Part shown: positions 7,950 through 19,115 of the stretch, one piece after another
How the letters are laid out: each line of letters opens with the position of its first letter
Numbering within the stretch: position 1 is the first letter of the stretch
NCBI GenBank assembly: GCA_016201105.1
Contig: JACQDN010000058.1
Coordinates: 1 to 64,000, forward strand
Direction: 5' to 3'
DNA length: 64,000 bases
From: Pseudomonadota bacterium
GTDB lineage: Bacteria > Pseudomonadota > Alphaproteobacteria > Micropepsales > Micropepsaceae
Notes under the pieces: model-generated
What the model was told of the DNA's origin: nothing
The model's database searches: none
The model's input: only the letters and a program-made list of their open reading frames with translations
Made by a program: the position numbers and the translations under genes

Positions 7950-9135
7950 TTCGCCAGACTCAATTCCGCTCGACCAACGCCGGGGCACGCTGCCGCGCGC
8001 GCTTGCCGTTGCTGTGGTCGTCGTGGCGGCAGCCACGCTCTTTTCGTTGGTGAGTTGCTCGCCCAACTCCGATGAAAAGCCGGCCGGATCTGAGACCGCC
8101 AGCAACGTGACGCTGACGGCGGACCAGCGCCAGCATATCCGCCTCTACACGGTCGCCTCGTCCAAGTATCACAAGGCGATCGAGACCACCGGAGTGATCG
8201 ACTTCGACAACGATCAGGCCACGAGCGTGCTGGCGCCCTTCTCCGGCCCGGTGTCGCGACTGCTCGTTTCGCCCGGCGATCAGGTCAAGCAAGGCGATGC
8301 CTTGGCGGTGATCGATTCGCCGGACTTCGCGGCAGCCATCAGTGCCTATCGCAAGGCGCGCGCAACCGCTGAAACCACGCGCAGGCTCGCCGCGATGGAC
8401 AAGGATCTTCTTCAGCACAACGGCGTTGCCCGGCGTGAAGAGGAACAGGCCGAGACCGACGCCGTCAGCGCCGAAGCCGACCGCGAGGCCGCATTGCAAG
8501 CGCTGGTCTCGCTGAACGTCGATCCCCATACCATCAAAGAGATTCAGAGGGGCCGGCCGATCCCAAAGATCGAGGGCACGATCCGCGCGCCCATCGCGGG
8601 CACCGTCGTTGAAAAACTGATTACGCCGGGAGAACTCCTGCAGGCCGGCACTACGCCCTGCTTCATGGTTGCCGATCTTTCGCGCGTCTGGGTCATGGCG
8701 CAGATCTTCGATTCCGACCTGGGATCGGTCAGCTTGGGCGACAAGGCCGAAGTGCTGACGGGCGTTTCGTCAAGCGGTTTCCCGGGAGCCGTGACCAGCA
8801 TCTCGGCTTTGGTGAACCCCGACACGCGTTCGGTCGTGGCGCGGGTGGCCGTCGACAATCCAAAGAACCTTCTGAAAAAGCAAATGTATGTGCGTGTGCG
8901 GATCGAGGCGCACCAGGAGAGCACCGGATTGCTGGTACCGGTTTCGGCGGTCCTGCGCGACGACGAGAACCTGCCGTTTGTCTATGTCGTTCAGCGTGAC
9001 GGCAGCTTCGCGCGCCAGCATGTGACCTTGGGGTATCGAAGTGGAGACCGATACGATATTTCCGCCGGCCTGCGCGCCGGGCAGCGGATTGTGATCGACG
9101 GCGCGCTCTTCATTCAGTTCATGCAATCGCAATGA
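7939..9135 (+). CDS. RND efflux periplasmic adaptor (HlyD/CusB/CzcB type) lipoprotein
   Basis: Membrane-fusion protein of the pump, 398 aa from ATG 7939. A hydrophobic N-terminal signal ends in LVSC, a plausible lipobox. The lipoyl/barrel-sandwich halves flank a short coiled-coil hairpin (FSGPVSRLLVSPGDQVKQGD and TIRAPIAGTVVEKLITPGE). The beta-barrel (LSRVWVMAQIFDSDLGSV) and a membrane-proximal domain follow. It bridges the inner-membrane transporter and the outer-membrane channel. No metal-chaperone or Met-rich extension is visible, so the sequence does not tell which metal is exported. Confidence 0.92.
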   Translation: MTNNSPDSIPLDQRRGTLPRALAVAVVVVAAATLFSLVSCSPNSDEKPAGSETASNVTLTADQRQHIRLYTVASSKYHKAIETTGVIDFDNDQATSVLAPFSGPVSRLLVSPGDQVKQGDALAVIDSPDFAAAISAYRKARATAETTRRLAAMDKDLLQHNGVARREEEQAETDAVSAEADREAALQALVSLNVDPHTIKEIQRGRPIPKIEGTIRAPIAGTVVEKLITPGELLQAGTTPCFMVADLSRVWVMAQIFDSDLGSVSLGDKAEVLTGVSSSGFPGAVTSISALVNPDTRSVVARVAVDNPKNLLKKQMYVRVRIEAHQESTGLLVPVSAVLRDDENLPFVYVVQRDGSFARQHVTLGYRSGDRYDISAGLRAGQRIVIDGALFIQFMQSQ

Positions 9136-12100
9136 GCGATCAACCGCAACCTTTGCCGCCGCGTACCGCGTCGATCATGAACCAGATCGTCGCGTCTTCA
9201 CTCGAGCAGCGCCTTCTCATCGTGTTGATGACGCTGTTGCTGGTGGGCGCCGGGTGGTGGGCGTTGAATCGTCTGCCGGTGGATGCCTATCCGGATCTTT
9301 CGCCGCCCATGGTGGAGATCGTCACGCAATGGCCCGGGCACGCTGCAGAGGAAGTGGAACGGCTGATCACGGTCCCCATCGAGCTCGACATGAACGGTGT
9401 CCCGGCGACGACCGCGGTACGCTCCATTTCGCTCTACGGATTGTCCCACGTGATCCTCACCTTTGACGAACACACGGACAACGAATTCGCACGTCAGCAA
9501 GTCTTCAACCGGCTGCCCGATCTCAGTCTGCCAAGCGGCGTGGCGCCTTCGGTGTCTCCGCTGAGTTCGCCTTCAGGCCTTGTCTATCGCTACGTGCTGC
9601 ACAGCCCGGACCGGTCGCCGATGGAGCTCAAGACCTTCGAGGACTGGCTCGTCGAACCGCAATACCGAGCCGTTCCCGGCGTGGCGGACGATTCCGGGTT
9701 TGGCGGCGGCTCCATGCAATATCAGGTGCTGCTCGACCCGGCCAAAATTGCCGGAGCCGGTTTGTCGGTGACGCAGGTGGAGAGCGCGCTCGCGGCCAAC
9801 AACAGCAATGCCGGTGGCGGGTTCTATTCGCAAGGCAGTCAGTTTTACTACGTGCGCGGTGTGGGGCGCCTCAACACGCTGGAAGATATCGGCAACGTAG
9901 TCCTGGCAATACACAACGGCACACCCGTGCTGCTGAAGGATGTCGGTCGCGTGGTCATCGGCATCGCCCCGCGCCTTGGCGAATTCGGTTTCGAGAAACA
10001 GGACGACGCGGTGGAAGGCGTCATCCTGATGCGCAAGGGGGAGAAAACCCAGGACGTCTTGAAAAAAGTCGAAGTCAAGACCGCTGAGCTCAACAACAGA
10101 ATCCTGCCAAAAGATGTCAAAGTCGTTCCGTTCTACGACCGAAGCGATCTGATTGCGCTGACCACACAGGTCGTCGAGAACAATCTGCTGCGCGGCATGT
10201 TGCTGGTCATCGTCGTGCTGATATTTTTTCTTTACGACTTCCGCGCGGGTTTGATCGTCGCTCTCACCATCCCGCTGGCGCTATTGTTCGCGTTTGTCTG
10301 TCTCGACATTCAAGGCGCTTCGGCCAATCTGCTCTCGATCGGCGCGATCGATTTCGGCATTTTGGTCGATGGTGCCGTGTTCATGGTGGAAAATATCTTC
10401 CGCCAGATCGCGCTTCATGAAGACGCGCCGTTCAACGTCAAGGAAGTCATCAAAGACGCGGCGGCGGAAGTGGACCGCCCGCTGTTTTACGCTGTCGCGG
10501 TGATCGTGGTCGGGTTTTTGCCGATCTACGTCTTGTCCGGACCCTCAGGAACGCTCTTCAAACCCATGGCCGACACCATGATTTTCGCGCTGGTCGGTTC
10601 ATTGATCGTCACACTGACCCTGCTGCCGGTGCTGTGTTCCTGGTTCATGCGCAACGGCGTGCACGAACGGCGCAATCCCGCCTTCGAAGCCATCAAGTCG
10701 GCTTACACCGAGTGGCTGGACTATTGCCTCGCCCGCCCCTGGGGAACAACGCTCGTTTCGGCTGGTCTGTTGGCGGCTTCGCTGCTCCTCATCCCCTTCA
10801 TCGGCGCCGAGTTCATGCCGCATCTGGATGAAGGCGCGCTGTGGGTGCGCGCGACCATGCCCTCCACCATTTCGTTCGATGAATCGGCGAAGATCGCTCC
10901 TCAGGTGCGCGACATCCTGCGCTCATTTCCACAGGTCACCACGGTTTCTTCGGAACTGGGACGGCCCGACGACGGGACGGATGCGACAGGATTCTTCAAC
11001 GTCGAGTTTTTTGTCGGTCTCAAGCCGTACTCGGATTGGACCGGTGCCTATCGCAGCAAAGCCGCGCTGATCGAAGCCATCAACCAGAAGCTCGAGGCCT
11101 TTCCAGGAATCATTTTCAACTACACCCAACCGGCCGAGGACGCGGTGGACGAAGCCGAGACAGGTCTGAAAAGCGCCCTGGCCGTCAAAGTGTTCGGCTC
11201 CGATCTGGACACGCTCGAACGCAAGGGCAAGACGATCAAGCAGGTGCTGGAGCGGGTGCGTGGAATCAAAGACGTGACCCTGGTGCGCGAGCTCGGTCAA
11301 CCAAGTCTGACCATCGCGATCAACCGCGCCGCCATCGCCCGCTACGGCGTGAACGTCGCCGACATCAACGGTTTGATCCAGACCGCGATCGGGGGAGACG
11401 CCGCCACCCAAGTGGTACAAGGCGAAAAGCAGTTTGATCTCATTGTCCGTCTCGATCGCCAGTTCCGGGACAGCCCCGAAGAGATCGGAAATATCCCGGT
11501 GCCCACCCCGGCAGGTCAGCAGATCCCGCTGAAAGAATTTGCGGACATCCAGGTGACGAACGGCGCTTCGTTCATCTACCGCGAAGACAATTCGCGTTAC
11601 ATCGGGGTCCAATTTTCTGTCGAAGGACGAGATCTTGCTGACGCGGTGGAAGATGCCATTCACCAGGTCAATGCAAAAATCACTTTGCCGCAAGGCTACC
11701 GCCTGGATTGGGGCGGGGAATATACGGACTACACCGCGTCCAGCCAGCAAGTGATGGTGATTCTGCCGTTGACCTTGTTCCTCATTTTTCTCCTGCTGTT
11801 CGCGCTCTACAGCAATTTCAAATTCCCCTTCATCACCGTGCTCGGCGTGCTTCTGTCGGCGCCGGTGGGCGGCATTGTGGCGCTGTGGATCACAGGCACG
11901 TCGTTTTCGGTTTCTTCCGACGTCGGTTTTCTGGCCTTGTTCGGCGTCTCCGTGCTGACGGCTGTTGTCTACATTTCCTATGTCAACGAGCTTCGCCGCA
12001 GTGGCACACCCCTCGACGAAGCCATTCGACAAGGCGCCATCCTGCGGCTGCGTCCGATCATGATGACCGCACTGGTGGCGGCCTTAGGACTGCTGCCGGC

Positions 12101-12251
12101 AGCGCTGGCCTCAGGCGTCGGCACGGATTCACAAAAGCCGTTTGCATTGGTCATCGTCAGCGGTCTTCTCACGCGGCTCTTGATCAGCGTTTTCCTCATG
12201 CCGGTGCTCTACGCCCTCGTGGCGCGTCCGGGCGACCGGCTGGAAGTGTGA
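9132..12251 (+). CDS. Heavy-metal efflux RND transporter, CzcA/CusA (HME) family
   Basis: Inner-membrane proton/metal antiporter of 1039 aa; its ATG overlaps the adaptor stop (ATGA). Twelve transmembrane helices and two large periplasmic loops are arranged as in the family. The proton-relay motif in TM4 is present: D407, D413 and E420, with the same spacing as CzcA D402/D408/E415. Together with the two preceding genes it would move metal ions from periplasm or cytoplasm across the outer membrane. The exact substrate (Zn/Co/Cd, Ni or Cu/Ag) cannot be read safely; the proton-relay motif favours a CzcA-like clade. No regulator gene lies in the operon. Confidence 0.94.
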   Translation: MSDQPQPLPPRTASIMNQIVASSLEQRLLIVLMTLLLVGAGWWALNRLPVDAYPDLSPPMVEIVTQWPGHAAEEVERLITVPIELDMNGVPATTAVRSISLYGLSHVILTFDEHTDNEFARQQVFNRLPDLSLPSGVAPSVSPLSSPSGLVYRYVLHSPDRSPMELKTFEDWLVEPQYRAVPGVADDSGFGGGSMQYQVLLDPAKIAGAGLSVTQVESALAANNSNAGGGFYSQGSQFYYVRGVGRLNTLEDIGNVVLAIHNGTPVLLKDVGRVVIGIAPRLGEFGFEKQDDAVEGVILMRKGEKTQDVLKKVEVKTAELNNRILPKDVKVVPFYDRSDLIALTTQVVENNLLRGMLLVIVVLIFFLYDFRAGLIVALTIPLALLFAFVCLDIQGASANLLSIGAIDFGILVDGAVFMVENIFRQIALHEDAPFNVKEVIKDAAAEVDRPLFYAVAVIVVGFLPIYVLSGPSGTLFKPMADTMIFALVGSLIVTLTLLPVLCSWFMRNGVHERRNPAFEAIKSAYTEWLDYCLARPWGTTLVSAGLLAASLLLIPFIGAEFMPHLDEGALWVRATMPSTISFDESAKIAPQVRDILRSFPQVTTVSSELGRPDDGTDATGFFNVEFFVGLKPYSDWTGAYRSKAALIEAINQKLEAFPGIIFNYTQPAEDAVDEAETGLKSALAVKVFGSDLDTLERKGKTIKQVLERVRGIKDVTLVRELGQPSLTIAINRAAIARYGVNVADINGLIQTAIGGDAATQVVQGEKQFDLIVRLDRQFRDSPEEIGNIPVPTPAGQQIPLKEFADIQVTNGASFIYREDNSRYIGVQFSVEGRDLADAVEDAIHQVNAKITLPQGYRLDWGGEYTDYTASSQQVMVILPLTLFLIFLLLFALYSNFKFPFITVLGVLLSAPVGGIVALWITGTSFSVSSDVGFLALFGVSVLTAVVYISYVNELRRSGTPLDEAIRQGAILRLRPIMMTALVAALGLLPAALASGVGTDSQKPFALVIVSGLLTRLLISVFLMPVLYALVARPGDRLEV

Positions 12252-12410
12252 TTCCGCCTAGATTTGAACTGGCTGGCAGTGTGGGCGGTCTGGATCCTAG
12301 TCCAAATCGCAAGGGGCGTAACCGGCGATGACGGGATGGTGAATGCGCCGCCGGCACATCAAACGCGCAAATCAGGAGGCGCCTTGGCGGTCCGGCGCTA
12401 TGATGACGCC

Positions 12411-13850
12411 ATGCTGCCAAAACCATTCAGTTGGGACCGCGCCGAAGCCCGCGCCGGAAAGCTCAACGGCAAGTTCATCATCGGCGTGCTGACGACAGGC
12501 ATTTACTGTCTGCCGTCCTGTGCGGCGCGACCGCCCAAGCCCGAGAATGTGCGCCTCTTCAAGACGGAGGAAGAGGCACTGAAGGCGGGCCTGCGCGCCT
12601 GCAAACGCTGCCGCCCCGATCTCTATTATCGCGGCGAAGACGGCGATCTGCAGCTGTTCGACGGATTGCTCGCCCGCGTCCGCGCCGAGCCGTCGTCGTT
12701 TGCCGATACGCCCGCACTGGCGCGCGCCTGCGGCGTGAGTCAGACGAAACTCGGCGATCTCTTTCGCGATCACGCTCATATGACGCCGGCGGTGTGGCTG
12801 CGCCGCGAGCGGGTGCGCGCCGCCTCAAGATTGCTGCTGGACGGCACGGTGCGCGTCGTCGAAATCGGCTATGCAGTGGGCTTCGAAAGCGAATCCGTTT
12901 TTCATCGCCAGTTTCTTGGTATCGCTCATATGACGCCAGGCGCCTATCGCGCCATGCAGGGCGCATCGGTTTTTTTGATCCAGCTTCCGCATCTCTACCG
13001 GCAGCAGGAGATTCTCGGCTATCACGCGCGCGATCCGCAGAGCCCGTGTGAACGTGTCGAAGGCGCCAAAATCTTCAAGGCGTTGGATACGCCGCAAGGC
13101 GCGGTCGTGCTGGAAGCCTCCTTCGAAGGCGCGGGCGCCTGGTGCCGCGCGCACGGCGCGGAACGCATGACCGCTCAGACGGCAGCCATGCTGCATTCCT
13201 CTGCGCTGAGGATGCTGGGCCTCAACGGCGAAGTCGCTTCGTTCGAAACGCGCATGTCGCGTGAGCCCCGGACGGCGGCTTTGATCGGCAAACGCCGCGG
13301 CCTGCGCGTGCCGCTGATCCCCACGGTCTTTGACGGTCTTTGCTGGGCCATCATCGGTCAGCAGATCAACGTGCCCTTCGCGGCCTCGCTGCGGCGTGAA
13401 ATTCTTCACCTCGCCGGCGAGCGCGTCGGCGAGATGCGGACCCATCCCAGTGCCGAGCGCGTCGCCAATCTGAGTGTGGCGGAACTCGCAAAGCGGCGCT
13501 ATTCGCGCTCCAAAGCCGATTATCTCATCGGCGCGGCGCGCGCAGTGGCGGAAAGAAAGCTCGACATTGAAGGCCTGCCGGAGGGATCAGCCCGCGCCGC
13601 CGAGAAGAAACTCACCGCCGTGCGCGGCATCGGCATCTGGACCGCGCGCTACGCCATGCTGCGCGGCGGCTTTGCCGACAGCGCGCCTGTGGGCGACAGC
13701 GCGCTCGCAACCGCGCTGCAGAAACTGCACGGCCGGGACGAACGTCCCGCCCACGAAGAGGTGCACGAACTGATGATGCCGTTCGCGCCAAACCGTAGTT
13801 TGGCCACCGTACATCTGTGGGCGAGCTTGAAAGACAAGGAAGCGGCATGA
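12411..13850 (+). CDS. Ada/AlkA fusion: DNA-3-methyladenine glycosylase II with Ada metal-binding and AraC domains
   Basis: Alkylation-repair protein, 479 aa from ATG 12411. An in-frame TTG at 12384, only 4 nt after AGGAGG, is a serious alternative start adding nine residues. Domains in order: the Ada methyl-phosphotriester zinc domain with C33, C37, C64 and C67 (same spacing as E. coli Ada C38/C42/C69/C72); an AraC-type helix-turn-helix (about 90-180); an AlkA N-domain; and a helix-hairpin-helix glycosylase (LTAVRGIGIWTARYAM) followed by the catalytic-Asp motif GDSALATAL. It probably both senses methylated DNA and excises alkylated bases. It overlaps ogt by 4 bp. Confidence 0.93.
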   Translation: MLPKPFSWDRAEARAGKLNGKFIIGVLTTGIYCLPSCAARPPKPENVRLFKTEEEALKAGLRACKRCRPDLYYRGEDGDLQLFDGLLARVRAEPSSFADTPALARACGVSQTKLGDLFRDHAHMTPAVWLRRERVRAASRLLLDGTVRVVEIGYAVGFESESVFHRQFLGIAHMTPGAYRAMQGASVFLIQLPHLYRQQEILGYHARDPQSPCERVEGAKIFKALDTPQGAVVLEASFEGAGAWCRAHGAERMTAQTAAMLHSSALRMLGLNGEVASFETRMSREPRTAALIGKRRGLRVPLIPTVFDGLCWAIIGQQINVPFAASLRREILHLAGERVGEMRTHPSAERVANLSVAELAKRRYSRSKADYLIGAARAVAERKLDIEGLPEGSARAAEKKLTAVRGIGIWTARYAMLRGGFADSAPVGDSALATALQKLHGRDERPAHEEVHELMMPFAPNRSLATVHLWASLKDKEAA

Positions 13851-14362
13851 GTTCCAAAGAGATCTATTGGGCTCCTATCGCATCCAAGTTTGGGAAGTTC
13901 GCGGCCTGGGTGGACGGCGAAGGCAGGTTGCTGCGCTTTCATTTGCGATCAAGCGGCGCGGCCCACGTCGATCGCGACGCGGAGCGCAACGAAAAGAAAC
14001 TCGCGAACGTGCAGAAGCAGATGGCGGAATACGACGCCGGCAAGCGGCGCGATTTCGAATTCGAGTTGGCGGCGGAAGGCTCTTCGTTTCAGCACGAGGT
14101 GTGGAATGCGCTGGTGGAGATTCCGTTCGGCGAAACGACCAGTTATGGCGCGCTTGCCAAAAGGCTCGGCTATCCCAATGGTGCCCGCGCGGTGGGTTTG
14201 GCGAACGGGCAAAACCCCATTGGGCTGATCGTGCCGTGTCATCGGGTGATCGGATCGGATGGCAGCCTTATCGGTTATGGCGGCGGGCTGCCGCTCAAAC
14301 GCGCTTTGCTGGAACACGAAGCGCGCGTCGCCGGTCACCCGCTCGATTTATTTTCAGTTTGA
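13847..14362 (+). CDS. ogt: Methylated-DNA--protein-cysteine S-methyltransferase
   Basis: Suicidal repair protein that takes the methyl group from O6-methylguanine; 171 aa from ATG 13847, which overlaps the stop of the glycosylase gene (ATGA). The acceptor cysteine C131 lies in the invariant PCHRVIG motif. Family blocks IPFGETTSYGALA and NGQNPIGLIVPCHR are intact, followed by GYGGGLPLKRALLEHE. The overlap makes one alkylation-damage operon in which the Ada-like N-terminus of the upstream protein may be the damage sensor. Confidence 0.96.
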   Translation: MSSKEIYWAPIASKFGKFAAWVDGEGRLLRFHLRSSGAAHVDRDAERNEKKLANVQKQMAEYDAGKRRDFEFELAAEGSSFQHEVWNALVEIPFGETTSYGALAKRLGYPNGARAVGLANGQNPIGLIVPCHRVIGSDGSLIGYGGGLPLKRALLEHEARVAGHPLDLFSV

Positions 14363-14421: not shown

Positions 14422-14925
14422 CTAAACCAGCCCTTCGGTTACGCCTTCATCCTCGTCGCGTTGTGGCGTGCGCTTTCTCACGATGAGCGGTGCGATACGG
14501 TGGGCGAAGAAGGGCAGCGGCAATGTCAGGCCGACGGCCCAGTGCGCGAGCGCAACCGCGCTGATCGCTGCATCGTTGCCGAGATAGTAAAGCAGATAGC
14601 CGCTCGCGATCAGCCAGACGAGCAATCCCAAAAGCATGGTCCCCGAAATGCGGTGACGCCTTGTGCCCCAGGCGCCGACGATATGTGCGCCCCATAGCAA
14701 GCCGAACGTCCATAACGCCGCGAAACCGAAAAGCCCGTGGGCGGCGCGTGACCAATATTCGAGCGGGTGTGGTGCGGGGCCGAATTCGCCCTGTTGCTGG
14801 AGAAAATAGTGAAGGACGAGCCACGCAACGCCGGTGAGCCACAATCCCAGCCCGATGCCATAGGTGACCCACCGTCTTGCACGCGAAAGGCGCACGGGCG
14901 AGATCGGGCGGATCCACATTTGCAT
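14422..14925 (-). CDS. Four-helix membrane protein, putative b-type cytochrome partner of a flavinylated protein
   Basis: A 167-aa membrane protein starting at the ATG that overlaps the apbE stop (ATGA); ATG 14919 is also possible. Four transmembrane segments lie at about residues 21-42, 62-84, 94-114 and 123-146. Histidines sit near both ends of helix 2 (H63, H81) and helix 4 (H128, H142), and H39 lies in helix 1. This would suit two b hemes, and resembles small cytochromes encoded with ApbE and FMN-binding proteins. I do not assign a named family. Inferred role: passing electrons between the membrane quinone pool or a cytosolic donor and the periplasmic flavoprotein encoded two genes upstream. 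Confidence 0.6.
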   Translation of the reverse strand: MQMWIRPISPVRLSRARRWVTYGIGLGLWLTGVAWLVLHYFLQQQGEFGPAPHPLEYWSRAAHGLFGFAALWTFGLLWGAHIVGAWGTRRHRISGTMLLGLLVWLIASGYLLYYLGNDAAISAVALAHWAVGLTLPLPFFAHRIAPLIVRKRTPQRDEDEGVTEGLV

Positions 14926-15809
14926 CAGGCATGCCCTCCCAATTCTCTCCAGCCGTACCGAATATCGTGGACGACGGCTTGGGCATTGAAAGCGGTGAGT
15001 GCGGGAAGGCTGCAGGCGCCTCGCGTCATGACCACTTTTGTCAGAGCGTCGGCATCGATACAACGCGGTGCGGCAACGGACACAAATTGCCGGACAGAAA
15101 TGGTGCGGCCGCAGCGCGTGTCGATATGAACGCCGGGAGTTTTTGCGCTGCCGCGATTGCCGGTGGCGCGGCCGCAAGAGCTTGCCAAACTGCCGTTCGA
15201 GAGTTCGATCAGAGGCACCACGCTATTGTCGACGTCGGGCGCCGCCAGACGAACTTTCTCGCTCGCCTGTCCAAGAACGCGAAGATCGCCGCCGGCGTTC
15301 ACGCACGCTTGCGATGGCGAGAAAGCCGCGATGATCTCCATGGCGCGATCGACCGCATAACCCTTGGCGATGCCGCCTAGATCTATCCAGAGCGGCCGGC
15401 GGAATTTCACGCGGCACTCCTCAAGAAGCTCGATGTCTCGCCACATCGCCGAGATTTCGGGGACAGCTACGCCGCGCGGTGCGGGAAGGATACCGCTGGC
15501 GACAAGGTCGGCCGCCACGGTGACGTCAAAGGCACCATCGCAGAGCGCGGAAACCTGCCGAGCGTGGCGTAGTACCTCGTAAGTACGGCGATCGACCGCA
15601 ACGGGGCGAATGTGCGCTTCCCGGTTCAAACGTGAAACATCGCTTGTTTCTTCATGAAAGCTCATCAGCGCATGGACCTGCGCAATTTCGGAAAATGCAC
15701 TGTCGATCGCGAGGTGAGCGCTGTCGTGGACGAGACCGTGCACGCGCACGCTCACATAGGTGCCTAACAGGGGCTTTGCCCGTTCAGTGACTGGAGAGCA
15801 CGATCGCAT
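14925..15809 (-). CDS. apbE: FAD:protein FMN transferase (ApbE)
   Basis: ApbE transfers FMN from FAD onto a Thr of partner proteins. The 294-aa protein shows the family blocks WIDLGGIAKGYAVDRA, NAGGDLRVLG and CIDADALTKVVM (the last near the Mg-binding Asp). Its predicted N-terminus (MRSCSPVTERAKPLLGTYVS) starts almost directly with the catalytic domain, with no clear signal peptide or lipobox. This is unusual, because most ApbE proteins act in the periplasm. It overlaps the FMN-binding protein gene by 26 bp and the membrane-protein gene by 1 bp, so all are one operon. The likely substrate is the protein encoded just upstream. Confidence 0.93.
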   Translation of the reverse strand: MRSCSPVTERAKPLLGTYVSVRVHGLVHDSAHLAIDSAFSEIAQVHALMSFHEETSDVSRLNREAHIRPVAVDRRTYEVLRHARQVSALCDGAFDVTVAADLVASGILPAPRGVAVPEISAMWRDIELLEECRVKFRRPLWIDLGGIAKGYAVDRAMEIIAAFSPSQACVNAGGDLRVLGQASEKVRLAAPDVDNSVVPLIELSNGSLASSCGRATGNRGSAKTPGVHIDTRCGRTISVRQFVSVAAPRCIDADALTKVVMTRGACSLPALTAFNAQAVVHDIRYGWRELGGHA

Positions 15810-16308
15810 ATGTCGCCATCAAACGCCGCACGCCGTCTGTGATGTGCTTGGAAGACAGGGTTGCCCCCGAAATATTCTGGATATCGTCGGTCAAACGAAG
15901 TTTAGCGACACTCGTTTTGCCGTTGAATTGCGCGCGCCATTTCGGGTTCATCACTTCGCCGCCATAGGTTTCGCGATATTCGAGGATCTCGATGTCCTTG
16001 ATTGCGCCGTTCGCGTCGATTCCGACGGCAAAGGGAATGAACTCGTGTTTGCCCACCACTTCATCGGCGATGAACCAGCCGCCGTTGGATGTGCGCCAAG
16101 CTTTCAAATCCTTGCTGAGGACGGTTGCGTCGCTCGCTTTTTCAATGACGGACACCTGCGCGTCGGTCAATTTGCGAAAGTCCGGCGCCAAGCGCGCGCC
16201 GGGGAACATGATGGCCTGCGCCTGTTCCACGCTGAGATAGACGGTGGCGTATGCCGGCGTGACCAGGGCAACTGCCGCGGCAGAAAGAAGAAGAAAACGT
16301 ACGTTCAT
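15784..16308 (-). CDS. Exported FMN-binding domain protein (covalent flavoprotein)
   Basis: A 174-aa protein from the ATG at 16308, with a clean Sec signal peptide (MNVRFLLLSAAAVALVTPAYA). The C-terminal half is an FMN-binding domain: the flavinylation motif reads ISGATLSSKHITDGV, with T150 as the predicted FMN attachment residue. It precedes apbE, the enzyme that installs such flavins. It is likely a periplasmic one-electron carrier or ferric reductase component. It lies 7 bp after the outer-membrane protein gene and shares its promoter. Confidence 0.85.
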   Translation of the reverse strand: MNVRFLLLSAAAVALVTPAYATVYLSVEQAQAIMFPGARLAPDFRKLTDAQVSVIEKASDATVLSKDLKAWRTSNGGWFIADEVVGKHEFIPFAVGIDANGAIKDIEILEYRETYGGEVMNPKWRAQFNGKTSVAKLRLTDDIQNISGATLSSKHITDGVRRLMATYAIVLSSH

Positions 16309-16315
16309 GGTGCCC

Positions 16316-17194
16316 TCAAAGAGCGATCCCGACGCGCAAGCGGACGCGGTAGCGTTCTTCTTCGTGCGCAAAGTGATTGACCGTTTCCCCGGCGGTACCG
16401 CTCAGATTCATCGCCCAGGGCAGTTGAGCCTGGGCGCCCAATGTTACCCAATAATTCTGCGCCGCGTAGTGAAGTACTGGTCCGAAGAAGAATGAGTTGG
16501 CGGCGCCGCTGCTGTGCTGAAACAGCAACAGCCCGTCATATTCACGTTGGCTTGCAAATTCGACGCCACCGAACCAGCTGGGCGCAAACCGGTACGAAAC
16601 GCCGGCGAGAACATTCAGCTCGGTGTTCTTGGCCCAGTGATGGGTGAAGTCTTTGCTGCCCGGAGGCGCGGTTGGATCGGGGGGAGCGAGATTCCATTCG
16701 TCTTCGAGAACCAGGTTCGCCGCGAGAACGAGCCGGTCGTCCAGGAAATTCTTTTGTAGAAGCACTTTGGTTTCGAACTCTCGCGAACCGGGACCTATTC
16801 TTGGTTCGACATACAATGCGAGCCCAATGGGATCGGTGAAAGGATTGAGCACTTGATAGATCGCTTCTGCGGAGATGCCCGTAAAGTGTGTTCCGCTGTC
16901 GGCCGGTCCTGTGATGGGATGCGTGCGTTCAAGTGTCCAGTCGTAGTTGGCGTAAGCCGAGATCTGGAAATTGCCGGTCAGGCCGTATTCGATTTCCGTC
17001 CTGCCTTCGATGGCATTGAAGGCCTCATGGGATTTGCCGTTCTTCCAGGTCAGCCATTGTTCGGTCTCCGAACCGCCCTTCGGCAAAATCTCGGTGGTGT
17101 AAATGGTGGCGAAGGGAGACTCGTCCGCCGTAGCGGGCATCGCCCCCAGGACCAGGACGATGGCTGCCAGCTTCAAGGCTCTGGAACTACGCAC
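16316..17194 (-). CDS. Putative beta-barrel outer-membrane protein leading a flavoprotein operon
   Basis: A 292-aa exported protein. I choose GTG 17194, preceded by GAGGG, because it begins right before a good signal peptide (LAAIVLVLGAMPATA). The body has alternating amphipathic strands and motifs such as LPKGGSETEQWLTW and EIEYGLTGNFQISAY, typical of barrel-like proteins often labelled only as domains of unknown function. It is the first gene of a four-gene minus-strand operon with the FMN-binding protein, ApbE and a histidine-rich membrane protein. A Fur-like box covers the presumed promoter. Role unknown; it could admit or present a substrate for reduction. Confidence 0.65.
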   Translation of the reverse strand: MRSSRALKLAAIVLVLGAMPATADESPFATIYTTEILPKGGSETEQWLTWKNGKSHEAFNAIEGRTEIEYGLTGNFQISAYANYDWTLERTHPITGPADSGTHFTGISAEAIYQVLNPFTDPIGLALYVEPRIGPGSREFETKVLLQKNFLDDRLVLAANLVLEDEWNLAPPDPTAPPGSKDFTHHWAKNTELNVLAGVSYRFAPSWFGGVEFASQREYDGLLLFQHSSGAANSFFFGPVLHYAAQNYWVTLGAQAQLPWAMNLSGTAGETVNHFAHEEERYRVRLRVGIAL

Positions 17195-17212
17195 GAATCC
17201 GCCCTCACATTT

Positions 17213-17231
17213 ATGATTGATAATCGTTCTC
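17213..17231 (-). promoter_or_regulatory. Fur-box-like operator upstream of the flavoprotein operon
   Basis: The 19-bp site ATGATTGATAATCGTTCTC matches the classical GATAATGATAATCATTATC Fur consensus at 13 of 19 positions, with the core TGATAATC intact. It ends 19 bp upstream of the GTG start of the outer-membrane protein gene. This is where a repressor would block transcription. The iron-regulation reading is inferred from this one site. Confidence 0.55.
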
Positions 17232-17384
17232 AAGAGAAATTGTGGCGGAGTTCCCCAACAACGTCAATGAGACTTAGTCGCAAATAATGTCGCATAGTTC
17301 TCTGCAGCCCGGCGGCCACTGCGGCGGTAGGGCCGCGCGCGAGACTCGGTCTAGGGTCGACGCCGGTCACATCCGGGGAACCCC

Positions 17385-17824: not shown

Positions 17825-18106
17825 TTAAAGGCTCAGTTCGCTGTGAGAGCCCAAGCGAACAAGTTCAAGTGTCTCGGTGTCCGGTTTTCGATAAATCAAC
17901 ACGAGATCCGGTTTGATATGGCAATCTCGGTGATCTTTCCAGCTGCCCGAAAGAGAATGATCTCTGAGCTTAACTGGTAAGGTTTCGTCGACGATCAGCA
18001 AGGCAAGGGCCGCTCTCAAATCGTTTTCGAGGGTTGCTCGATGCAGGCCCTTCGCCTCACGCTTGTAGTCGCGCTTGAACTTGGTGGTGCGCTTAATCGT
18101 CCGCAT
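17825..18106 (-). CDS. yafQ: Type II toxin, YafQ/RelE-like mRNA interferase
   Basis: A 93-aa toxin-like protein with DHSLSGSWKDHRDCHIKPDLVLIYR, closely matching E. coli YafQ (split here as DHSLSGSW and HRDCHIKPD). The ribonuclease residues are present at nearly the same positions as in YafQ: H50, H63, D67 and H88. It would cleave mRNA in the ribosomal A site. It overlaps the antitoxin gene upstream by 14 bp, the usual antitoxin-first order. The pair lies directly before the str operon. Confidence 0.9.
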   Translation of the reverse strand: MRTIKRTTKFKRDYKREAKGLHRATLENDLRAALALLIVDETLPVKLRDHSLSGSWKDHRDCHIKPDLVLIYRKPDTETLELVRLGSHSELSL

Positions 18107-18356
18107 TCAGATCGGTCATCAATTCATCGATGCTGCCGACTGTCACCAAATCGCCTTCGCGAGCCGCTGTCATTGCCTTGATCGTATCTGCGTTCGGAAC
18201 AAGCGGATCAAAAGGGAGGGCCTTTTCCGCTACTGTCCTCATCAGCATCATGCGCAATGCGTCAGACACGGTAAGACCAACGGCCGCCAAGATGGCTGTT
18301 GCTTCCTTTTTTACGCGTTCATCAATCCGGGCACGCACCACAGCATTTGCCGTCAT
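18093..18356 (-). CDS. dinJ: Type II antitoxin, RelB/DinJ family
   Basis: An 87-aa antitoxin starting MTANAVVRARIDERVKKEA, the ribbon-helix-helix beginning of the RelB/DinJ family, followed by ILAAVGLTVSDALRMML. The N-terminal part should dimerise and bind DNA, and the C-terminal tail (DLVTVGSIDELMTDL) should wrap the toxin. The start ATG lies 17 bp from a perfect palindrome that fits an autoregulatory operator. It precedes and overlaps the toxin gene. Confidence 0.88.
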   Translation of the reverse strand: MTANAVVRARIDERVKKEATAILAAVGLTVSDALRMMLMRTVAEKALPFDPLVPNADTIKAMTAAREGDLVTVGSIDELMTDLNADD

Positions 18357-18737: not shown

Positions 18738-19115
18738 ATGCCGACGATCAATCAGTTGATCCGCAAGGGACGCAAGTCCAAGCCGGGCCGTAACAAGGTG
18801 CCGGCGCTTCAGAATTCTCCGCAACGCCGCGGCGTGTGCACGCGCGTCTATACGACGACGCCGAAGAAGCCGAACTCCGCGCTGCGCAAAGTCGCGAAGG
18901 TGCGCTTGACCGGCAAGGGCGGCTACGAAGTGGTGAGCTACATCCCGGGCGAGGGCCACAATTTGCAGGAACACTCTGTGGTGCTCATTCGCGGCGGCCG
19001 CGTGAAGGATCTTCCGGGCGTTCGCTACCACATCATCCGCGGCGTGCTCGACACGCAAGGCGTGAAGGACCGCAAGCAACGCCGTTCGCTCTACGGCGCG
19101 AAGCGTCCGAAGTAA
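18738..19115 (+). CDS. rpsL: Ribosomal protein S12
   Basis: Decoding-centre protein of the 30S subunit, 125 aa. The conserved loops [12 protein letters not shown] and [14 protein letters not shown] are intact, with Lys at the positions where substitutions give streptomycin resistance (K43/K44 and K90 in this numbering). The sequence therefore predicts the sensitive form. First gene of the str operon, 31 bp before rpsG. Confidence 0.99.

Follow-up and report, generated by a model that had tools for sequence, protein, structure and literature searches.

A widespread four-gene cassette for predicted flavinylated electron transfer, probably linked to iron, in a Micropepsaceae bacterium

We analyzed a 64,000-nucleotide (nt) stretch of DNA (hereafter the window; positions 1 to 64,000 of contig JACQDN010000058.1, assembly GCA_016201105.1) from a member of the Micropepsaceae (Alphaproteobacteria), in which open reading frame calls and a Pfam search place a set of four genes on the minus strand at 14422-17194 (Table 1). 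In order of transcription, the genes encode a DUF6662 outer-membrane barrel, an FMN_bind protein predicted to carry covalent flavin mononucleotide (FMN), the FMN transferase ApbE, and a four-helix membrane protein. The cassette represents a known kind of system, flavinylated electron transfer, in a new combination of genes. A first-pass annotation of the DNA had described four tightly packed genes with overlaps at the last two joints and a Fur-like box at the front, and had named a barrel-like outer-membrane protein, an exported FMN-binding protein with an SGAT motif, and ApbE. The Pfam matches bear out these identities, the box is in place, and the packing is as described, with a gap of 7 nt between the barrel and FMN_bind genes, a 26 nt overlap of FMN_bind with ApbE, and a 1 nt overlap of ApbE with the four-helix gene (TGATG). 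GTG at 17194 is the most likely start of the barrel gene, because TTG at 17233 would add a polar stretch ahead of the signal sequence. If the promoter-like element upstream were used, the transcription start would coincide with the Fur-like box. Convergent DNA-repair genes on one side and a divergent MAPEG gene on the other mark the operon as a free-standing unit. The source genome (3.85 Mb, 98.6% complete) has one match each to the Pfam models for ApbE and FMN_bind, two to the FUR family and one to FTR1, the latter on a different contig; there is thus one evident target for this ApbE.

Table 1. Cassette genes and upstream elements in the window.
Feature	Position	Strand	Characteristics
Promoter-like TTGACG-N17-CACAAT	17239-17267	-	9/12 matches; 1.1 such expected by chance in the region (shuffles), weak by itself
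Fur-like box TGAGAACGATTATCA	17218-17232	-	12/14 matches to TGATAATNATTATCA; start codon 24-38 nt downstream
DUF6662 outer-membrane barrel	16316-17194	-	Pfam E 1.1e-10; signal sequence, 12 predicted strands
FMN_bind protein	15784-16308	-	Pfam E 2.8e-13; export signal, NISGAT, Thr150
ApbE, FAD:protein FMN transferase	14925-15809	-	Pfam E 1.5e-41; ADALTK motif, no signal peptide seen
Four-helix membrane protein, probable di-heme b-type cytochrome	14422-14925	-	167 residues; H63, H81, H128, H142

The cassette is real and widespread. Using an FMN_bind alignment as bait against genome contigs, we kept the best 80 of 545 relatives as loci, and the order barrel-FMN_bind-ApbE-four-helix is preserved on a single strand in 62 of them, a fraction biased upwards by the choice of those loci closest to the window FMN_bind protein. 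Gene order had been named in the first-pass annotation both as a check and as a possible refutation of the system, and on this count the proposal stands. The incomplete loci lack DUF6662 only (13), the four-helix gene in its place (two: L129, which reaches the contig end, and L154, where the gene lies upstream on the opposite strand), ApbE only (one), or two genes (two). Carriers belong to the Proteobacteria, Acidobacteria, and Verrucomicrobia, including Dyella, Variovorax, Sphingobium, Acidipila, Solimonas, Chthoniobacter, Nitrospirillum, and Sulfuriferula, and the flanking genes vary widely between loci. With start codons chosen by script, FMN_bind and ApbE overlap in 58 of 77 pairs and ApbE and the four-helix gene in 57 of 75, and the median gap between barrel and FMN_bind is 12 nt (66 pairs). 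On a plasmid of Sphingomonas parapaucimobilis the existing annotation reads DUF6662, FMN-binding protein, FAD:protein FMN transferase, and hypothetical protein, in that order.

A four-helix alignment used as a second bait matched 9 of 385 genomes of the class and 14 of 398 of the phylum, at 22 distinct places altogether. All four genes are present at 14 of the 22, the window included (G289 was counted as a match, its surroundings not being inspected). Over the loci found with the different baits, partial sets consist of ApbE and the cytochrome only (L062 and L063), the cytochrome only (L064), or a set with a divergent FMN_bind (L068); L067 and L070 have no DUF6662, and in L122 and L155 the cytochrome gene lies directly 3' of FMN_bind, ApbE being absent. 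A contig scan with the single window four-helix sequence confirmed no relative. The DUF6662 bait matched 11 of 398 phylum genomes, apparently the identical draw, and each of these 11 also belongs to the 14 that encode the four-helix protein, the genes adjoining; it also matched 2 of 190 class genomes, both with the cassette. DUF6662, a family of unknown function, thereby gains a context, being confined among the 398 sampled genomes to those with the cytochrome.

The paired histidines noticed at first pass correspond to H63, H81, H128, and H142 of the four-helix protein, which do not vary in any of the 66 sequences aligned (65 of 77 relatives plus the window protein), and neither do G32 and LYY at 112-114. 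The structure prediction suggested there was also carried out: the model (pLDDT 90.8) has helices at 15-41, 54-88, 92-114, and 118-152, the last broken at 135, and the four histidines fall on two helices of the predicted bundle (54-88 and 118-152), as in a cytochrome b561/DUF4405-like di-heme bundle. As read from the sequence, both termini and residues 89-92 carry positive charges; both ends would therefore lie inside, with H63 and H128 towards the periplasmic side and H81 and H142 towards the cytoplasmic side. Since the protein has no nucleotide-binding domain, quinol is the likely donor. Of the 66 family members, 28 match Ni_hydr_CYTB and 12 match DUF4405 (best 2.6e-4) at E<=0.01, and in a smaller set 5 of 22 match DUF4405 at E<=0.1 (best 7.7e-7). 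The window protein itself has no Pfam match to DUF4405 (PF14358) at E<=1 and scores 13.3 bits against Ni_hydr_CYTB (PF01292), under the cut-off of 30.1, compared with 42.3 bits for its relative L071. PepSY-like domains (PF03929/PF16357) gave no Pfam match in the four window proteins or in the family tables of the relatives. A match of the window protein to CrgA (E 0.029) is under the cut-off and was rejected. High-ranking fold neighbours of the model in VIA-align include the cytochrome b of Escherichia coli hydrogenase-1 (Z 11.7, root-mean-square deviation 4.2, 135 residues) and E. coli superoxide oxidase 5oc0 (Z 10.9, 3.3, 132 residues), together with bundles designed to hold one or two hemes (Z 10.3-11.8). 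FoxB, MsrQ, and a DUF4405 structure were not among the structural matches listed, which excludes nothing. The protein is probably a di-heme membrane cytochrome, heme binding being predicted.

The FMN_bind protein appears ready for flavinylation: G148, A149, and T150 are invariant in 40 of 40 aligned sequences (39 of the 80 relatives plus the window protein), an ApbE gene lies beside it, and its [S/T]GAT site makes FMN on Thr150 the predicted modification. The N-terminus is signal-like and by eye ends at a cleavage-like site, and our own hydrophobicity test, a proxy for a signal, picks out a signal-like segment within residues 1-45 of 68 of the 80 FMN_bind proteins. RRx[FLIVM], a marker of twin-arginine translocation (Tat) signals, occurs in 9 of the 80. 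A survey from 2021 retained any cluster in which at least one target gene had a signal (PMC8238504); by that operational definition the signal proxy of the FMN_bind protein qualifies, and the cassette would therefore not have been excluded. RnfG and NqrC share the FMN_bind domain and flavinylation site with the cassette flavoprotein. The cassette differs from Rnf/Nqr in having no further subunits and in the cleavage-like end of the flavoprotein's hydrophobic N-terminus. Membership in Rnf/Nqr was rejected, as the FMN_bind domain is the sole match, no other Rnf/Nqr subunit is found in the cassette, and the NCBIfam RnfG/NqrC matches are far under their cut-offs.

The window ApbE itself has no visible signal peptide and no in-frame start further upstream, a feature that the first-pass annotation had not mentioned. 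Export of ApbE is usual, though not defining, for ApbE-flavinylated systems, and a signal-like stretch ahead of the core motif was found by hydrophobicity in none of 76 cassette ApbEs (with start codons as far as 75 nt ahead of the FMN_bind stop admitted; L116, having no ApbE core, was omitted). In four of 77 a hydrophobic segment occurs within residues 1-45; in none does it precede the core motif. At least 64 of the 77 carry ADAxxK, where ApbEs of a Paracoccus PepSY-type set and of Pantoea have threonine at the lysine position; threonine at this position binds metal. Most of the 29 ApbE rows assembled for comparison (L008-L036) gave no match to the core motif. A signal-less start is not unique to the cassette, as the PepSY-linked ApbE of the Paracoccus plasmid and the Pantoea ApbE share it. 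Most ApbEs are apparently secreted, and cytosolic ones exist whose target is a soluble fumarate reductase, according to a review of ApbE (PMC12052999). With a signal-less ApbE and an exported substrate, FMN would either be attached before export or ApbE would reach the periplasm another way. The missing signal thus poses the question of where in the cell FMN is attached.

The DUF6662 protein is predicted by AlphaFold2 to form a barrel of 12 strands (pLDDT 91.6), and a signal-like stretch lies within the first 45 residues of 63 of 66 barrels by the same hydrophobicity test (56 of the 66 were aligned together with the window protein). In fold it resembles FapF (Foldseek E 4e-9) and the COG4313 channel (E 3e-7), at Z ~22 over 235-246 residues. 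These 12-strand channels have the barrel fold in common with DUF6662 at an identity of just 8-10%, and differ in setting, as the cassette has no Fap or solvent-degradation genes. No redox motif was seen in the barrel. A Porin_O_P-like protein is encoded in 9 of the 14 loci without DUF6662, its gene lying 4-154 nt ahead of FMN_bind in eight and downstream of it in L111; of the other five, two (L113 and L138) start at FMN_bind. Eight further loci have both kinds of barrel, so that the porin occurs in 17 of 80 overall. On plasmids of Bradyrhizobium, Methylocystis, and Ideonella the slot is occupied by proteins of 440-545 residues, of which that of Ideonella alone has a porin match, below threshold. 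As unrelated barrels share one slot, a pore may matter more than a specific redox partner, which suggests that the barrel is a substrate channel. The electron path reaching to the outer membrane that the first-pass annotation had inferred thus finds no support: no redox motif is seen, a 12-strand channel is predicted, and a porin replaces the barrel in 8 of 14 loci. A second copy of DUF6662 is encoded in G791 (L179, 1402-2316) beside ABC-type ATPase genes, of the branched-chain amino-acid type by eye; the other three partners are absent from that stretch.

An operator of the Fur type, as expected in a Fur regulon, is located in the promoter region of the cassette. Sites with <=2 mismatches to TGATAATNATTATCA number six in the 3.85 Mb genome, and the backwards control gave none. 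Upstream regions of the phylogenetically non-independent loci were scanned against shuffles (75 of 80 loci) or against control upstreams and half-site permutations (74 of 80), the remaining loci lying near a contig end or containing N. A palindrome of >=11/14 was found in 13 of 75 loci, where 0.92 were expected from dinucleotide shuffles, and one of >=12/14 in 6 (0.08 expected). When regions ahead of other genes from these loci serve as the comparison, the counts are 13 of 74 against 11 of 273 at >=11/14 and 6 of 74 against 4 of 273 at >=12/14. The Fur half-site, TGATAAT, was fixed beforehand and ranks first of 140 permutations; TGAGAAT and TGCGAAT, picked after inspection of the data, rank first of 210 and of 630. 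In addition, FTR1 overlaps the four-helix gene in two of the 80 loci (L088 and L092), ferritin is encoded in seven (in four of them 99-129 nt ahead of the barrel gene), and FUR genes in four (149-750 nt ahead of it); the iron neighbours of L089, L137, L151, and L160 were called by phmmer only. In G010, genes for DyP peroxidases, a cupredoxin, and FTR1 run directly into FMN_bind-ApbE-cytochrome with no DUF6662, and in G775 a ferritin-cupredoxin-FTR1-Fer4_5 operon leads on to a Porin_O_P gene and then to FMN_bind and the cytochrome, a stretch in which ApbE was not found. Judged from sequence, the operon is very probably Fur-controlled, and the cassette would apparently be switched on under iron shortage. 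The iron control put forward at first pass is thus strengthened by the enrichment of the box upstream of relatives and by the FTR1, ferritin, and Fur genes beside some of them.

Neighbours were also sampled by family. From 416 called, 134 were selected by position, length, and codon G+C and four long ones left out; one was swapped by hand for the FTR1 frame of L092 and the TonB receptor of L141 was added, so that the FTR1 and TonB counts are not choice-free. Among the 131 selected, no family exceeds four members, a number reached by ferritin and ribosomal S2 (25 of 134 families listed). In L104 and L005, genes for a DyP-type peroxidase, a RidA-like protein, and an NHL-like secreted protein (the last two by eye) precede FMN_bind-ApbE-cytochrome, possibly a second iron-linked arrangement. 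On a plasmid of Methylocystis heyeri (L170, 4213-9488) multicopper oxidase and ferritin-like genes come after the cassette, a hint that copper and iron may be coupled there.

There are precedents for such a system. Caulobacter has a DUF2271/DUF4198/ApbE cluster under Fur repression (PMC3751524), and flavinylation clusters linked to iron are described as well (PMC8238504). The PepSY/DUF2271/DUF4198/ApbE clusters (Meheust 2021; Caulobacter CC_3059-3063) are likewise Fur-repressed, combine an ApbE-modified periplasmic carrier with a membrane protein, and are proposed to reduce iron. The cassette differs from them in having FMN_bind for DUF2271, a four-helix, four-histidine protein with no PepSY match, and an outer-membrane barrel, and in having no DUF4198. 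Its cytochrome resembles the apbE-linked DUF4405 cytochromes/FezC, which have four central histidines and Proteobacteria among their hosts; these have six helices rather than four and often occur with Flavodoxin_4 and a flavin transporter (Huang 2024, PMC11334425). The word porin is absent from that paper. P19/FTR1 clusters and FtrABCD-type uptake place FMN_bind beside FTR1 (PMC8238504), similar to G010 and G775, whereas the window cassette has neither FTR1 nor P19. The four-gene set was not found described in titles, abstracts, and passages searched, and such clusters may stand unnamed in supplementary tables; a search on DUF6662 found no paper. With the cassette, flavinylated electron transfer gains a partner in the outer membrane and a link to iron through both operator and neighbours.

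We propose, with a probability of a little under 0.6, that the cassette encodes a Fur-controlled, quinol-fed, flavinylated periplasmic iron reductase, iron reduction being its likeliest job. Fur would repress the operon under sufficient iron. Electrons would enter from quinol, the four-helix protein having no NAD(P)H domain, and would cross the inner membrane by way of two stacked b-type hemes to reach a periplasmic FMN that ApbE has covalently fixed to Thr150 of the FMN_bind protein. The flavin would reduce ferric iron, free, chelated, or siderophore-bound, in the periplasm, the barrel admitting the iron compound or a shuttle, and the Fe(II) would be taken up by FTR1 or another transporter. 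Several observations weigh against this proposal. A heme-free designed bundle reaches Z 11.1 and voltage sensors ~10, so a Z near 11 is indecisive for a helical bundle, and Foldseek gave no significant PDB match for the four-helix model (best E 0.29). Two of the four control upstreams at >=12/14 are 14/14, and 62 of 75 loci are under 11/14, a strong box thus being absent from most. The five other box-like sites of the genome have no obvious iron gene by eye, and Fur control here therefore rests on one site and on the relatives. Most of the 80 loci have no recognized adjoining iron gene, the two FTR1, four FUR, and seven ferritin loci being partly the same, and these counts are raw, unadjusted for background. 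A cytoplasmic-looking ApbE, moreover, does not fit simple periplasmic flavinylation.

Electron flow could also be reversed, with the flavoprotein taking electrons from Fe(II) or from oxidation coupled to FTR1 and delivering them through the cytochrome to quinone. FtrABCD-like systems are thought to oxidize iron while taking it up, and FTR1, cupredoxin, Fer4_5, and ferritin occur among the neighbours. FTR1 adjoins the set in just 2 of 80 loci within the stretch examined, and characterized ApbE systems run from a cytosolic donor outwards, reversal being allowed (PMC8238504); we regard this direction as improbable. A general periplasmic reductase of superoxide, quinone, copper, methionine sulfoxide, or another substrate, merely co-regulated with iron, would agree with the superoxide oxidase 5oc0 (Z 10.9) as fold neighbour and with the multicopper oxidase and ferritin-like genes beside the Methylocystis set. 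The Fur-type boxes, the iron-uptake neighbours, and the position of ferritin as one of the two commonest neighbour families render it unlikely. That the four genes are chance neighbours with no joint function is contradicted by an order kept in 62 of 80 loci amid very different surroundings, and its probability is close to nil.

The cassette might otherwise be a flavin analogue of the porin-cytochrome conduits, with the flavoprotein docked to the barrel and electrons leaving the periplasm to reduce iron or another acceptor at or outside the outer membrane. The barrel and FMN_bind genes do adjoin at the short spacing given above, and a barrel seems wanted, since a porin is present in 9 of the 14 loci without DUF6662 and both barrels in 8 more. 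The predicted 12-strand barrel looks too narrow for a protein of 174 residues, however, no redox motif was seen in it, and the fact that a porin of different ancestry can take over the slot speaks against a specific docking partner, so that the idea seems rather unlikely. A related, doubtful version joins the conduit to FMN attachment in the cytoplasm: the signal-less ApbE, of a Lys-for-Thr subclass, would modify the flavoprotein before export, the holo-protein leaving by Tat in some members, and the flavoprotein-barrel unit would pass electrons from the cytochrome to iron at or beyond the outer membrane.

Elsewhere in the window, the genes convergent with the cassette encode, in a single frame at 12264-13850 (+), Ada metal-binding, AraC-type helix-turn-helix, and HhH-GPD glycosylase domains (Ada/AlkA-type) and, 3' of this gene at 13817-14362 (+), an Ogt-like methyltransferase. 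An AcrB-type RND pump is encoded at 9132-12251 (+; E 1.7e-263). A YafQ-type toxin (17825-18106, -; E 7e-30) and a RelB-type antitoxin (18093-18356, -; E 4e-16) are encoded near the gene for ribosomal protein S12 (18738-19115).

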